Shown here piece by piece: positions 6,397 through 56,576 of a stretch of DNA of 64,000 nucleotides. The notes beneath the pieces were generated by a model. The model searched no databases. It was given only the letters and a program-made list of their open reading frames with translations, and was not told the DNA's origin. The DNA comes from Paenibacillus bovis (GTDB lineage Bacteria; Bacillota; Bacilli; Paenibacillales; Paenibacillaceae). Every line of letters begins with the position of its first letter. Within the stretch, counting starts at the first letter, position 1. The stretch covers positions 1,853,501 to 1,917,500 of the forward strand of contig NZ_CP013023.1 in NCBI RefSeq assembly GCF_001421015.2. The letters are read 5' to 3'. Made by a program: the position numbers and the translations under genes.

Positions 6397-6515
6397 CACC
6401 AAGCACCAAGCACCAAGCACCAAGCACCAAGCACCAAGCACCAAGCACCAAGCACCAAGCACCAAGCACCAAGCACCAAGCACCAAGCACCAAGCACCAA
6501 GCACCAAGCACCAAG
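6397..6515. repeat. 17 perfect tandem copies of CACCAAG (7-bp VNTR-like array)
   Basis: Counting from 6397, the unit CACCAAG repeats in phase for 119 bp, exactly 17 times, with no mismatch. It lies between the nasC stop (6616) and the nas terminator (6385), so it is transcribed as the 3' untranslated region of the nas mRNA, reading CTTGGTG there. Frames through it encode only repetitive peptides and lack ribosome binding sites. Perfect identity implies recent slippage. Confidence 0.97.
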
Positions 6516-6615
6516 CAGTTACAGCATCTATGCGAATATGCCAGGTAAGTAGGTCAGGCAGAAGATGAATCTGCGTAAGCAATCGCAGCTATGCGTAGAT
6601 CGGTTTGATTTACCT

Positions 6616-11588: not shown

Positions 11589-11640
11589 AGTAAAGCATCT
11601 GATCCATTAAAGTAAATAAGTCCATCAAAATAAAGCCGAC

Positions 11641-11768
11641 GCACAGAACGGAAGAAAGGAAATAAGAGCAAAGGACGAGATTTAAGCCTGGAGATCCTCA
11701 TTCCTTCCCACCATTAAAGGATCTCCAGGCTTAACCAGAGGACGTGCTCTTATTCCTTTCTGAAGTGA
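11641..11768. ncRNA. three-helix structured element, copy 1
   Basis: Outer helix arms lie at 11654-11670 and 11745-11760 (16 bp plus one bulged A). Inner helix arms at 11682-11697 and 11719-11734 are 16 bp and perfect. Between them is an internal loop with AAAGGACGA on the left and CCAGAGGACG on the right. A short CAC/GTG helix closes the base, with a second internal loop AGAACGGAA / TGAA. The apical loop contains TCCTT. The same architecture with different helix sequences occurs at 28213-28336 and 53476-53600. The type label ncRNA is an inference; the strand is uncertain, although loop order suggests plus. Confidence 0.7.
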
Positions 11769-11814
11769 ATAATGCAAGTCCATGTTAGTCCAGTCCTCCC
11801 GACCTAGCCCAGCG

Positions 11815-28022: not shown

Positions 28023-28212
28023 GTCATTCATACGCTCAGAAGATAGAGAAAATTCCCAAGTCCGCTTTTAAAACATTAAATAAATTAAAAAATTAACTCT
28101 AAACAATGAATTCAGAGTATAACATTAACGAAATTGATCATAAACTTTTCCCAAACATGCTACTACTCAAAATGCCGCTGAACACGTATATATGGAAATG
28201 AAGTAACAACAT

Positions 28213-28336
28213 CCGCCCAGCGTAGAAAAGGGAATTGGGACAAAGGACGACTTTGGACCCTGAGAATCAACCTTCTCTCCCTTCACGGATTCTCAGGGTC
28301 CACCGGAGGACGTGTCCCAATCCCTTTTCGCAGCGG
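28213..28336. ncRNA. three-helix structured element, copy 2
   Basis: A basal CCGC/GCGG helix (28213-28216, 28333-28336) is followed by an internal loop CCAGCGTA / GCA. The outer helix 28225-28242 pairs with 28313-28329 (17 bp plus one bulged A). An internal loop AAGGACGAC / CCGGAGGACG comes next, then a perfect 15-bp inner helix (28254-28268 with 28288-28302) and an apical loop containing CCCTT. Both internal loops match copies 1 and 3 while the helices differ. It lies between the GH125 and GH29 genes; in plus orientation it is co-directional with them. The label ncRNA is an inference. Confidence 0.75.
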
Positions 28337-28344
28337 CTGAACTT

Positions 28345-28381
28345 TCATCATCCCAACCAACTTCATCATCCCAACCAACAA
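28345..28381. repeat. two direct copies of an 18-bp unit
   Basis: CTTCATCATCCCAACCAA and a near-identical preceding copy stand side by side just after the structured element and before the GH29 start. Confidence 0.75.
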
Positions 28382-28490
28382 CTACTGCCACAAAGAAAAA
28401 CACTCAACACAGCACAATGACACATCACACAGTAATGCACCACATACGTACAGCCTGCTCACAATGATCATTCCACGGAGGCGATATACC

Positions 28491-52922: not shown

Positions 52923-53420
52923 TCAGCGGTTATCAATAGTCTCCGGATACATATCATGGTTCATCATGCGATGCTCGGCCATTTGCTCATACTTGGTACC
53001 CGGTTTGCCGTAGTTGGTGTATGGATCGATCGAGATGCCGCCGCGCGGGGTAAATTTGCCCCAGACTTCGATATAACGAGGATCCATCAGTTTCACGAGA
53101 TCGTTGAGGATAATATTCATGCAGTCCTCATGAAAATCACCGTGATTACGGAAGCTGAATAGATACAGCTTGAGCGATTTACTTTCTACCATTTTTACAT
53201 CAGGGATATAGCTGATATAAATGGTCGCAAAATCCGGCTGTCCGGTAATCGGGCACAGGCTGGTGAATTCCGGGCAGTTGAATTTGACAAAGTAGTCACG
53301 GTACGTGTGCTTGTTATCAAAGCTCTCCAGGATACTTGGATCGTACTCAAATGTATATTTGGTACCTTGGTTGCCAAGCAGGGTGAGGTCTTGCATTTCG
53401 TCTTGTTGTCTTCCTGACAT
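52923..53420 (-). CDS. queF: NADPH-dependent preQ0 reductase
   Basis: The 165-residue enzyme reduces the nitrile of 7-cyano-7-deazaguanine (preQ0) to the amine preQ1, the last step before insertion into tRNA. Cys56 and Asp63 lie in [12 protein letters not shown], and the NADPH/substrate motif is [20 protein letters not shown]. Size matches Bacillus QueF (unimodular type). AAAAGGAG precedes the ATG. It is the last gene of the queC-D-E-F series but is separated from queE by 353 bp holding copy 3 of the structured element. Confidence 0.96.
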
Positions 53421-53475
53421 ATGGGAATCTCCTTTTAATTACAAATTTGAAAATAGAGCCGGTTGAATGGGCAAG

Positions 53476-53600
53476 GCGCTTCGGAAATGAATAGCTCTTG
53501 CGGTCGCTGGTAAGCCCGAATATTTTGAAATAAGGATTACAATGGTAAATATCCGGGCTTAAAGGCGACCTTTCGAGCTATTCATTCCCTCCGCTGGCGC
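53476..53600. ncRNA. three-helix structured element, copy 3
   Basis: Basal GCGC/GCGC (53476-53479, 53597-53600). The outer helix 53483-53497 pairs with 53575-53588 (14 bp plus one bulged A). The inner helix 53511-53525 pairs with 53547-53561. Read on the minus strand, the internal loops are CAGCGGAG / GAA and GAAAGGTCGCC / CCAGCGACC, matching copies 1 and 2, and the apical loop contains ATCCTT. It lies between queE and queF, co-directional with the operon in the minus orientation. The label ncRNA is an inference. Confidence 0.72.
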
Positions 53601-53773
53601 ATGGAATTCATCAGGTTCATTATCATAAGAACCGAAATCATTAAAAAGATATTCAAGCCTGCGGCTGGCATATGGGTAATAGAGTGGCAGTCAACTCACT
53701 CGTCTTTTATATGACATATTGCTGTCCAACCTAGAATACCGGTACATTGCTGAAATCAAACGACAGCTTTCTT

Positions 53774-54703
53774 TTACACGCCGCGTTTGTTGCCCCATAC
53801 GAGAGTATGCAGTTGTGGCAGGATGCGGGCATCGTTAAAGGCTGGCATATCCATAGCCTGGTCGATCAGCCATTCGTAGCGGTGCAGCAGGGAAGAGGCA
53901 ATATTGTCGTCGGCACTGGTAACGTCGGGGTTACCGGTCTGCATGTAGAACGGTACATTCGGGTAGCGCTTGTGTACCTGTTCGGCGTACTTCAGATCGG
54001 CTTCGTCGAAAATAACGACTTTGAGGCTGATCGATTGGTCGACGGGGGCCTGTTCGTCCGAGTCGGCATAGATGATATCCTGCATCATCTGATTGATCTG
54101 GTTCTGGCGCAGCTTGCGGATAATGCTATCCAGGATCTCGAAATTAGTCTCCATCCCCGAGCTTGGCGGCTTGGGCGAGATGGTCACATCGTTGATATCC
54201 AGCAGCCAATCCTGCCAACGGGAACCCTGTGTCTCGACAGCGGTACGAATACCATCCTGGCGAAGCAGCTGGACCAGTTCACCAATCGAGACCAGCAGTG
54301 CCGGATTGCCACCGGAAATAGTGACATGGTTAAAACGGTCGCCACCGATAGCTTTGAGCTCATCGTATACATCCTGGGCACTCAGCTTGCGAATCTGGTC
54401 TTTGGCACTGCCGTCCCAGGTGAAGGCGGAGTCACACCAGCTGCAGCGATAATCGCAGCCTGCCGTGCGCACGAACATCGTTTTTTGTCCGATAACCATG
54501 CCTTCGCCCTGAACAGTCGGTCCGAAAATCTCCAGTACCGGGATCGTAGCTGTAGGACGGCTTGCCGTACCAACAGATTCATTTCCACGACTGGCTTGCT
54601 CATTTTCGCGGCCTGTCTGATCATTTTCATTCATTGATGCTTTATTACTGTTTACTTGGTCGACCATCATATCGCTGGGTTTGTCGGTGAGGATGCGGCT
54701 CAT
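53774..54703 (-). CDS. queE: 7-carboxy-7-deazaguanine synthase (radical SAM)
   Basis: This radical SAM enzyme contracts 6-carboxytetrahydropterin to 7-carboxy-7-deazaguanine. The cluster motif is CDYRCSWC (Cys83, Cys87, Cys90), preceded by FGPTVQGEGMVIGQKTMFVR, and the C-terminus ends LPQLHTLVWGNKRGV. From the ATG at 54703 it has 309 residues. About 53 of these form an extra N-terminal, Asn/Glu/Ser-rich, apparently disordered stretch that Bacillus QueE (243 residues) lacks. The start overlaps the queD stop by 4 bp (ATGA). Confidence 0.95.
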   Translation of the reverse strand: MSRILTDKPSDMMVDQVNSNKASMNENDQTGRENEQASRGNESVGTASRPTATIPVLEIFGPTVQGEGMVIGQKTMFVRTAGCDYRCSWCDSAFTWDGSAKDQIRKLSAQDVYDELKAIGGDRFNHVTISGGNPALLVSIGELVQLLRQDGIRTAVETQGSRWQDWLLDINDVTISPKPPSSGMETNFEILDSIIRKLRQNQINQMMQDIIYADSDEQAPVDQSISLKVVIFDEADLKYAEQVHKRYPNVPFYMQTGNPDVTSADDNIASSLLHRYEWLIDQAMDMPAFNDARILPQLHTLVWGNKRGV

Positions 54704-55191
54704 GATTCCATCCACTCCCGTCTGGCTTCGGCATAGCTGGTCGGTGTCTCGTATAATTGAACGAACTCGGTCCGTCCGCCCTGTACCTGATCGCAGTAAG
54801 GTTCGCTTTGCAGCGCCTGTTCCATTTGTTCGTACAGCCAGACTACCATATTCTCGGCAGTGGTATTCATTGGCGGCAGGGTTTCGTTCAGATAACGGTG
54901 ATCCAGATAAGGCTCGATGCGTTCTTTCCAGATGTTCTTGATATCGCCAAAGTCCACCACGATACCATTCATGGAAGGAATGCCGCTAATGCCAAAAATT
55001 ACTCGATACGTATGTCCGTGCAGATTCATGCATTTGCCTTCGTAGGCATGCAGATGATGGGCTGCATCGAATGTGAATTCCTTGTTTACCAGCACCCGTT
55101 TGCGATGATAACGGAGCTGTTCATGCTGGATATCGGTGCCATACTGCTGCAGCTTCTCGACAATACGAAACGGTCCGGGTTGATTCATCAT
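54700..55191 (-). CDS. queD: 6-carboxy-5,6,7,8-tetrahydropterin synthase
   Basis: The 163-residue enzyme converts dihydroneopterin triphosphate to 6-carboxytetrahydropterin. Zinc ligands are His45 or His46 (FDAAHHL), His58 and His60 (NLHGHTYR), and the catalytic Cys54 is in [10 protein letters not shown]. Residues 1-32 form a short extra N-terminus. It overlaps queC by 4 bp at its start and queE by 4 bp at its end, so the three are translationally coupled. Confidence 0.95.
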
Positions 55192-55916: not shown

Positions 55917-56319
55917 AAAAAAATCTCTCCATTTCCATCAGGGGATATCAGAAAATACAGCCTGGTTATGAATAGTATCGCTGCATAGGAAGACGATTCG
56001 GCAATAGCCGGTCATCCACAGGCAGGATACACATCCTATCCGAACGTGGTTTCTGTTGTCCTTTGGGAAGAAGAGAGTTCCATGAACTTGATCTATAGTG
56101 GCATTCTGCAGCATCATGTTGTGAAATAAAAAATACTCATCATTAATGAGTCGGATGTATACAAAATGCTCAAGCAAAAACAAACCTGCGATTGCGGATT
56201 TTTGAAATCAAGGATACAAAAGATGAGGAGACGGATAGCGATTCGAGACGGAACGTCTTTAGACCACTTTATCATCATTCATAACTATCATATCGATTCA
56301 AAAATATCTGCAATGAGGC
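55917..56319 (-). promoter_or_regulatory. long leader between preQ1 riboswitch and queC
   Basis: About 400 bp with no convincing gene; a minus-strand frame at 55938-56183 lacks a ribosome site. No strong terminator next to the aptamer is obvious. Confidence 0.45.
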
Positions 56320-56360
56320 GGTTTTAGTTTTTTATAGAGGGAGTTCGCGAACCTCTCCCG
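56320..56360 (-). promoter_or_regulatory. preQ1-I riboswitch aptamer
   Basis: Minus strand: stem GGGAGAGG / CCTCT with the tail ATAAAAAACTAA, the A-rich H-type pseudoknot strand typical of class I preQ1 aptamers. It lies upstream of queCDEF in the same direction, so it should lower expression when preQ1 is abundant. Confidence 0.9.
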
Positions 56361-56576
56361 CGTCGTACTGCACAGAACTTCCATGTATACCGATGATATA
56401 AATAGTAGTTCCAATCAGGCCAACTACGGACTTTCTTCTGTTCAGGATGCGGCTGTAAAAACCGCTTCATCAGTATAGCACATTCAATCGGGATTGGTAG
56501 GGTAAATTATGCCAATGAATAAGCAATAAGAAGGCTGAATTAAGCAGCTGTATAACGTGTATATCGGTAGAAAAAT

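Follow-up and report, generated by a model that had tools for sequence, protein, structure and literature searches.

A dispersed family of hairpin elements in Paenibacillus and relatives, with a fold that selection appears to maintain

Small interspersed repeats of bacteria are often taken as parasitic relics, whereas in the family described here the fold is constrained at individual copies that have not moved, which opens a test of whether, and through what partner, a bacterial repeat of this kind came to serve as a structured RNA (or DNA) module. The attC sites of integrons are single-strand hairpins in which unpaired bases define the strand; the present elements resemble them as single-strand hairpins and differ from them in being dispersed as singles and pairs. 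The intergenic structured repeat bcr1 is of similar size and occurs in Bacilli, and by description it can be likened to the present element in size, intergenic place and host group. The accessible portion of one source names bcr1 of Bacillus cereus as a MITE and, by the title of a paper cited there, as specific to the B. cereus group (PMC3733652).

The BOX elements of Streptococcus pneumoniae, as far as the accessible parts of their description go, are modular, have a variable number of boxB units and were judged parasitic and dormant (PMC3049150). According to the same partial account, they share with the present family high-copy dispersal, a predicted RNA fold, proposed mobilisation in trans and low present mobility (PMC3049150), but are set apart, on a comparison of descriptions, by the fold conservation, compensatory evolution and in-place constraint seen here. 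REPs, in the portions of the literature at hand, are 20-40 bp long, have a Y1 transposase as partner and carry GTAG or CGTC at one end, and REP/REPIN systems are alike in their dispersed palindromes, the alternating REP orientations of their composite repeats and their long-persisting populations (PMC3733652, PMC2817692, PMC8049555). The present elements, in contrast, are ~130 nt long (120-150), bear CGNAG on both sides and occur in a genus in which no Y1 was found in 15 of 16 genomes, so that membership in a REP/REPIN-RAYT system was rejected on the transposase as well as on the size and tag of the palindrome.

A description of such repeats in Paenibacillus was not found in the literature searched, which covered repeats and structured RNAs in part; repeats and 73 predicted ncRNAs are mentioned in the accessible part of the genome paper of P. 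vortex, in too little detail to place this family. On that literature and on Rfam 15, the family is apparently undescribed. At the gathering threshold, Rfam 15 gave no match for the elements of the window, by which we mean the whole 64-kb stretch analysed, its sole match there being a preQ1 riboswitch, and none at 20 loci with elements of other genomes, in agreement with the remark of the initial annotation that no known family fits. Matches below the threshold lay far under the cut-off, belonged mostly to microRNA families and were set aside as chance.

In this window of Paenibacillus bovis, a three-helix element had been proposed at three intergenic sites, and all three were located (11641-11768, 28213-28336 and 53476-53600), with folds that each beat 200 of 200 dinucleotide shuffles; z-scores on the plus strand are -9.9, -7.7 and -5.7 for copies 1, 2 and 3, and copy 3 reaches -8.4 on the minus strand. 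Their neighbours are mutually unrelated, comprising a pyridine-nucleotide oxidoreductase, an aldehyde dehydrogenase, GH125, a fucosidase, QueF and a radical-SAM protein. Copy 1 (11635..11773, plus strand) is a subfamily A element and scores 146.1 bits with R1, a covariance model built from 16 P. bovis copies bearing both conserved inner-loop strands, copy 1 among them. Its outer helix, with one bulged A, joins 11653-11670 to 11745-11761, and its inner helix of 17 bp with the apical loop occupies 11682..11734 (arms 11682-11698 / 11718-11734), all on the plus strand.

Copy 2 (28207..28341, plus strand), likewise of subfamily A, scores 133.8 bits with R1, in whose training set it stands, and 57.9 bits (E 6.8e-11) with R3, a model built from elements of other genomes; the R3 search of the window did not detect copy 1 at E 1. 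Read on the plus strand, copy 2 begins with the 5' basal motif GCGTAG (28220..28225), which supplies the basal pairs G28220-C28334 and C28221-G28333 and the GNA of the symmetric GNA/GNA loop that follows. The 5' arm of the 17-bp outer helix (28225..28242) carries the conserved bulged A at 28234 and leads into the 5' strand of the inner internal loop, AAGGACGACTT (28243..28253), whose columns are conserved, as are those of the 3' strand of that loop, CCGGAGGACG (28303..28312). Between the two strands lies the inner helix of 15 bp (28254..28302; arms 28254-28268 / 28288-28302, apical loop 28269-28287), and beyond them follow the 3' arm of the outer helix (28313..28329), the 3' basal motif CGCAGC (28329..28334) and a C-rich, G-poor 3' tail (28342..28401). 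An 18-bp tandem duplication is found in this tail at 28344-28379, where the P. dauci ortholog has a single unit.

The initial annotation placed copy 3 correctly, but its strand is the minus strand, while copies 1 and 2 lie on the plus strand. As a general-type element at 53471..53606, copy 3 scores 88.7 bits (E 9e-18) with R3 on the minus strand against 34.4 on the plus strand, and 85.6 against 33.9 bits with a further model, R2, which was trained on sequences that include the window copies; R1, which has no copy 3 in its training set, detects it on the minus strand at 56.2 bits. A QueF gene and a radical-SAM gene stand on either side, both on the minus strand (Pfam). The preQ1 riboswitch lies at 56318-56361 on the minus strand (43.8 bits, Rfam 15), and downstream of it on that strand lie the radical-SAM gene (53774-54715) and QueF (52923-53420). 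Copy 3 may thus sit in sense inside a putative queuosine operon.

The element is a rod 120-150 nt long that folds on one defined strand. It starts with a 2-bp base and a symmetric GNA/GNA loop; next come the outer helix, which carries a single bulged A, then the middle module and the inner helix; at the tip is an apical loop, frequently a small hairpin itself. Several details of the earlier description change accordingly. What had been called a short basal helix consists of two pairs, one G/A-C/T and one C-G, which close the GNA/GNA loop (CGNAG in both strands), and no covariation supports basal pairs further out in those copies for which an anchor could be set (70 of 86). That helix sequences differ completely between copies was too strong a statement, since a large part of the inner helix (TTTAAGCC..GG) is common to copies 1 and 3. 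The shared inner loop holds for copies of the A subfamily, whose middle module is GGAC/GGAC and can be read as tandem G-A, but in other subfamilies its place is taken by a Watson-Crick helix (GGCC/GGCC, GACC/GGTC or TCGC/GCGA). A kink-turn was dropped, on reasoning, because no 3-nt bulge stands beside the tandem G-A. The general type carries an additional GCGNAGC-like mini-hairpin. The P. bovis genome houses several subfamilies that differ in middle module and apical hairpin (e.g. L108:2785-2876), and one of its copies is without the entire inner helix, the outer helix being retained.

Chance as the source of the recurring pattern is excluded, because the exact two-block pattern occurs 16 times in the P. 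bovis genome and once for the reversed control. Within the 16 copies, 98.2% of paired cells hold standard pairs (shuffle mean 82.6%) and 25 of 36 pairs show two-sided changes (shuffle mean 12.7); none of 500 shuffles attains the observed values on four of five measures, and two of 500 do so on the fifth, pair types. Across 92 copies from P. bovis and relatives, in an alignment that was fitted to the model and hence leans towards its structure, standard pairs make up 95.1%, two-sided changes occur at 33 of 36 pairs, and 688 two-sided cells stand against 197 in shuffles, with 0 of 500 shuffles reaching the observed values on all five measures. The architecture is unchanged in a model-free MAFFT alignment with RNAalifold of 16 elements of other genomes (24 of 38 pairs two-sided), although the way these elements were obtained, by R1 or R2 searches and then by choice for CGNAG ends and loop motifs, tilts the result towards that structure. 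Fourteen of them are from other genera and two from the same genus, one (L064) being also among the 92, and it is from these 16 that R3 was built. Covariation thus exceeds shuffled expectation, as the initial annotation had anticipated, and it supports a conserved secondary structure, as expected of a structured cis- or trans-acting RNA.

The pairs also tell which strand folds. At paired positions of 86 of the 92 copies, 60 cells hold G-T and 11 hold A-C, the former occurring at 20 and the latter at 10 of 33 positions, and 15 of the 16 copies of other genomes give 17 against 1; these counts omit rows with three or more broken pairs (six and one, respectively) and three poorly paired columns, and they become 67 against 23 with all 92 rows and 72 against 52 when the three columns are added too. 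From the excess of G-T over A-C at paired sites it follows that the element strand is the folding one and the one on which selection acts, be it as RNA or as single-stranded DNA, the asymmetry being compatible with folded single-stranded DNA as well.

The three hairpins of the window are members of a family of dispersed hairpin elements in Paenibacillus and relatives. In the P. bovis genome, R1 yields 119 matches at E <= 0.01, which correspond to at least 86 places, mostly intergenic, once 32 overlapping opposite-strand matches and one weak match are removed; 150 of 960 first-look candidates were scored, so that further copies are possible, and a few of the 86 places reach only 43-50 bits. Beyond this genome, within the genus R1 matches 15 of 16 genomes (E 0.001); within the family R2 matches 94 of 245 genomes, in 9 of 19 genera (E 1e-6; 13 candidates scored per genome); and within the order R3 matches 234 of 296 genomes, in 32 of 48 genera (E 1e-5; 11 candidates scored per genome). 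Fuller scoring of 18 chosen genomes gave 12 to 145 matches each, opposite-strand matches included, and the named genomes in the exact pattern scan are those of P. wulumuqiensis, P. dauci and P. hunanensis (54 stretches; own species possibly excluded). The further copies that the initial annotation called for are therefore present, at home and in most sampled genomes of the order, and the covariance models are ready for the annotation of Paenibacillus genomes.

Copies have mostly been inherited in place, judging by the sampled copies that were set against P. dauci and P. wulumuqiensis. Among 64 elements in loci fetched from these genomes (51 and 13, respectively), 51 are orthologous to P. bovis elements, and 54 when the window copies are included, which add one ortholog in P. 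wulumuqiensis and two in P. dauci; the fetched ortholog loci come mostly from best matches. Mean divergence in 44 P. dauci ortholog pairs, gaps not counted, is 3.7% in the stems, 12.4% in the apical loop and 18% and 20% in the two 60-nt flanks, and the difference between stems and flanks shows the fold to be under constraint at its site. Of the two-sided changes in intact ortholog pairs, 11 kept the base pair and 3 broke it, and of the one-sided changes 46 kept it and 36 broke it; unfiltered, the figures are 14 against 3 and 51 against 48. The bias of one-sided changes towards pair keeping is only mild. Copy 1 has orthologs in both species; in P. dauci the element can be aligned but most of the flanking sequence cannot, and its inner helix in P. 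wulumuqiensis shows two two-sided compensatory changes. Copy 2 has an ortholog in P. dauci. Selection seems to keep the folded shape while the letters of the stems change. Decayed or truncated copies exist as well, P. dauci having a partial deletion at 1648381 and a decayed copy at 1521875. At 1604499, where P. dauci is without the element, no tidy joint or duplication is readable, and one further site (L174) holds mostly different intergenic DNA.

With respect to the adjacent genes, there is no clear bias in orientation. Relative to the element, and by a crude ORF caller, upstream and downstream genes are same/same at 29 places, opposite/opposite at 21, same/opposite at 20 and opposite/same at 14, with two incomplete, and the upstream gene lies on the same strand at 50 and on the opposite strand at 35 of the 86 places. 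The element itself is directional, its C-rich, G-poor 3' flank being strand-specific: C exceeds G in the 60 nt 3' of the element at 83 of 86 places (49 of 50 single and 34 of 36 paired copies), irrespective of whether the downstream gene is on the same strand (41 of 44) or the opposite one (41 of 41), against 38 of 86 in the control. The same holds for 61 of 64 elements of P. dauci and P. wulumuqiensis and 26 of 31 of other genomes. Rho-dependent terminators have a C-rich, G-poor stretch on one strand. The present elements are alike in having such a region on their own strand, but differ in the fixed rod hairpin upstream of it and in showing no clear bias to follow a gene.

Neighbouring copies follow a rule of their own in that all 18 pairs closer than 600 bp in the P. 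bovis genome are divergent, with their 5' sides facing, as are all 17 such pairs in the loci of P. dauci and P. wulumuqiensis, many of which are orthologous to P. bovis pairs. That paired copies form one transposing unit was rejected, since the 18 spacers are without mutual similarity. The rule fails in one other genome, G181, where, among 96 listed copies, five of six neighbour pairs within 1.5 kb are co-directional, in arrays with a period of ~177 bp. Single copies lie along the direction of replication in 32 of 50 cases with the terminus at half-way, and in 34-36 of 50 with the terminus at 3.1-3.25 Mb, a placement made afterwards at the sign change of sampled GC skew, the uncorrected p ranging from 0.065 to 0.003. 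For all copies, with the terminus at half-way, the count is 50 of 86 (p 0.16, not significant), and in G181, with position 1 taken as the origin, the lean is absent (42 of 96 listed copies). A replication lean suits a DNA role at least as well as an RNA role.

Signals of independent transcription were looked for around the 86 P. bovis copies. None has a sigma-70-like box pair scoring above 9/12 and directed towards the element, this being the one promoter type covered, and a T-run of six within 120 nt on the 3' side occurs at 1 of 86; the stand-alone RNA gene, being without such promoter or terminator signals, was set aside as improbable. Short tandem arrays occur in the 5' flanks of many elements, and the window has CACCAAG x17 at 6397-6517. 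Arrays of at least six units stand on the 5' side of 7 of 50 single copies and on the 3' side of 0 of 50, and in 8 of 18 spacers against 2 of 36 outer flanks. Microsatellite arrays as a part of the element were nevertheless rejected, as they are common elsewhere in these genomes despite the 5' excess.

Signs of mobility come from G181. Eighteen of its copies, taken from the top of the match list and so biased to similarity, have near-identical hairpins, with outside sequence kept to very different lengths. Some lie in ~225-bp units with inverted ends (GGCTC...GAGCC); a scripted search found both ends in 3 of the 18, with flanking 8-mers agreeing at 3, 6 and 7 of 8 positions, and at locus L308 TATTTATA is seen by eye on both sides. 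In the P. bovis genome, GGCTC and GAGCC ends occur together at 0 of 86 places. A MITE, named by the initial annotation as counting against its reading, may in part apply to the MITE-like units of this one other genome, but leaves the in-place conservation elsewhere unexplained. Two G181 loci (L292, L293) are head-to-tail tandem arrays with a period of ~177 bp, and one miniature copy has no inner hairpin.

Neither of the two transposase families tested fits the elements. The Y1 (HUH) transposase PF01797 is present in 1 of 16 genomes of the genus and absent from that of P. bovis, and IS200/IS605 or RAYT mobilisation was on this count rejected as a general mechanism. ISL3 mobilisation, hinted at by the GGCTC ends and 8-bp repeats of G181, was rejected as general too: ISL3, the sole family in the search for shared ends, was found in 1 of 12 genomes, in a lone locus where the transposase is split by a stop and the ends are unrelated to those of the element.

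The explanation we favour, with a confidence that falls a little short of even, is that these are repeats of mobile origin whose hairpin is selected in place, most likely as RNA, with a putative partner factor. The family has likely spread as short non-autonomous mobile units, recently so in one lineage, and selection likely preserves the hairpin, not the mobile ends. The acting form is probably an RNA within read-through or operon transcripts, and a dedicated RNA-binding factor would, on balance, read the fixed non-Watson-Crick sites while the stem letters drift. The C-rich, G-poor 3' tail could conceivably serve to load Rho or another factor that binds single-stranded RNA, and hairpin and tail together might form a directional transcript boundary. 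The earlier reading as a structured RNA (or protein-bound DNA hairpin) is supported by the many copies, by covariation above shuffles and by the lack of an Rfam match. A bolder proposal, which we put forward tentatively and would not call probable, is that of an order-wide RNA class, made up of mobile-origin hairpins selected at scores of loci and bound by one predicted factor through the GNA/GNA, bulged-A and tandem G-A sites, with the C-rich tail as its landing place, the elements serving as directional transcript boundaries or RNA-protein docking sites.

The main rival assigns the action to single-stranded DNA: the hairpin would be extruded or exposed in replication as the site of a putative transposase or recombinase and be kept mobilisable, as in REP/REPIN or attC. 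We regard this as possible, though on the unlikely side. Dispersal without clear gene-orientation bias fits it, as do the 18 of 18 close pairs that are divergent, as expected of two-ended units, the likeness of G181 copies and end sequences, the commoner tandem arrays on the 5' side and the lean of singles to the replication direction (32 of 50, or 34-36 of 50, by terminus placement); GNA loops and GCGNAGC motifs, moreover, fold well in DNA. It is less readily reconciled with constraint at orthologous, unmoved copies, with spacers that share no similarity, with the absence of replication bias in G181 (42 of 96 listed copies when position 1 is taken as the origin), or with the rarity of Y1 and of the stop-split ISL3 in genomes all of which have the hairpins.

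Further readings have less to commend them. Stand-alone small RNA genes acting in trans would account for the strong RNA-like fold, the one-strand polarity and copies that stay in place although those in the window share no neighbour gene, but the want of sigma-70-like box pairs above 9/12, the near absence of T-runs after the element and up to 145 matches per genome (opposite strand included), a high number for trans RNAs, make such a family improbable. Neutral MITE relics, in which template switching from arm to arm (quasi-palindrome correction) imitates covariation, appear more improbable still. Long inverted repeats are substrates of such correction, G181 has MITE-like ends, decayed and truncated copies are present and one-sided changes are only mildly biased; against this, non-complementary loops and the bulged A remain conserved, the G-T over A-C asymmetry would not come from correction alone and, most strongly, stems evolve about five times more slowly than the adjacent flanks at the same site. 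For ordinary intrinsic terminators or attenuators, suggested by strong intergenic hairpins, the chance is very slight, 85 of 86 places being without a T-run of six within 120 nt and the elements having no clear tendency to follow a gene; a simple terminator is disfavoured because a transcript-end element would be expected to show the gene-orientation bias that is not evident here.

The A type had no match on plasmids, and neither it nor the G181 type had one in phage records. Elements of the G181/general type are found on three Paenibacillus plasmid records (NZ_CP013204.1, NZ_CP054613.1 and NZ_CP054609.1), four of these places being on one 2.7-Mb replicon of P. cellulosilyticus. Among IMG/VR viral contigs, the general-type pattern occurs in 11 stretches (L314-L324), of which five come from contigs of ~25-28 kb and have the pattern ~200-820 bp from the start of the fetched stretch; these five are possibly the host flank of one conserved prophage-like region.
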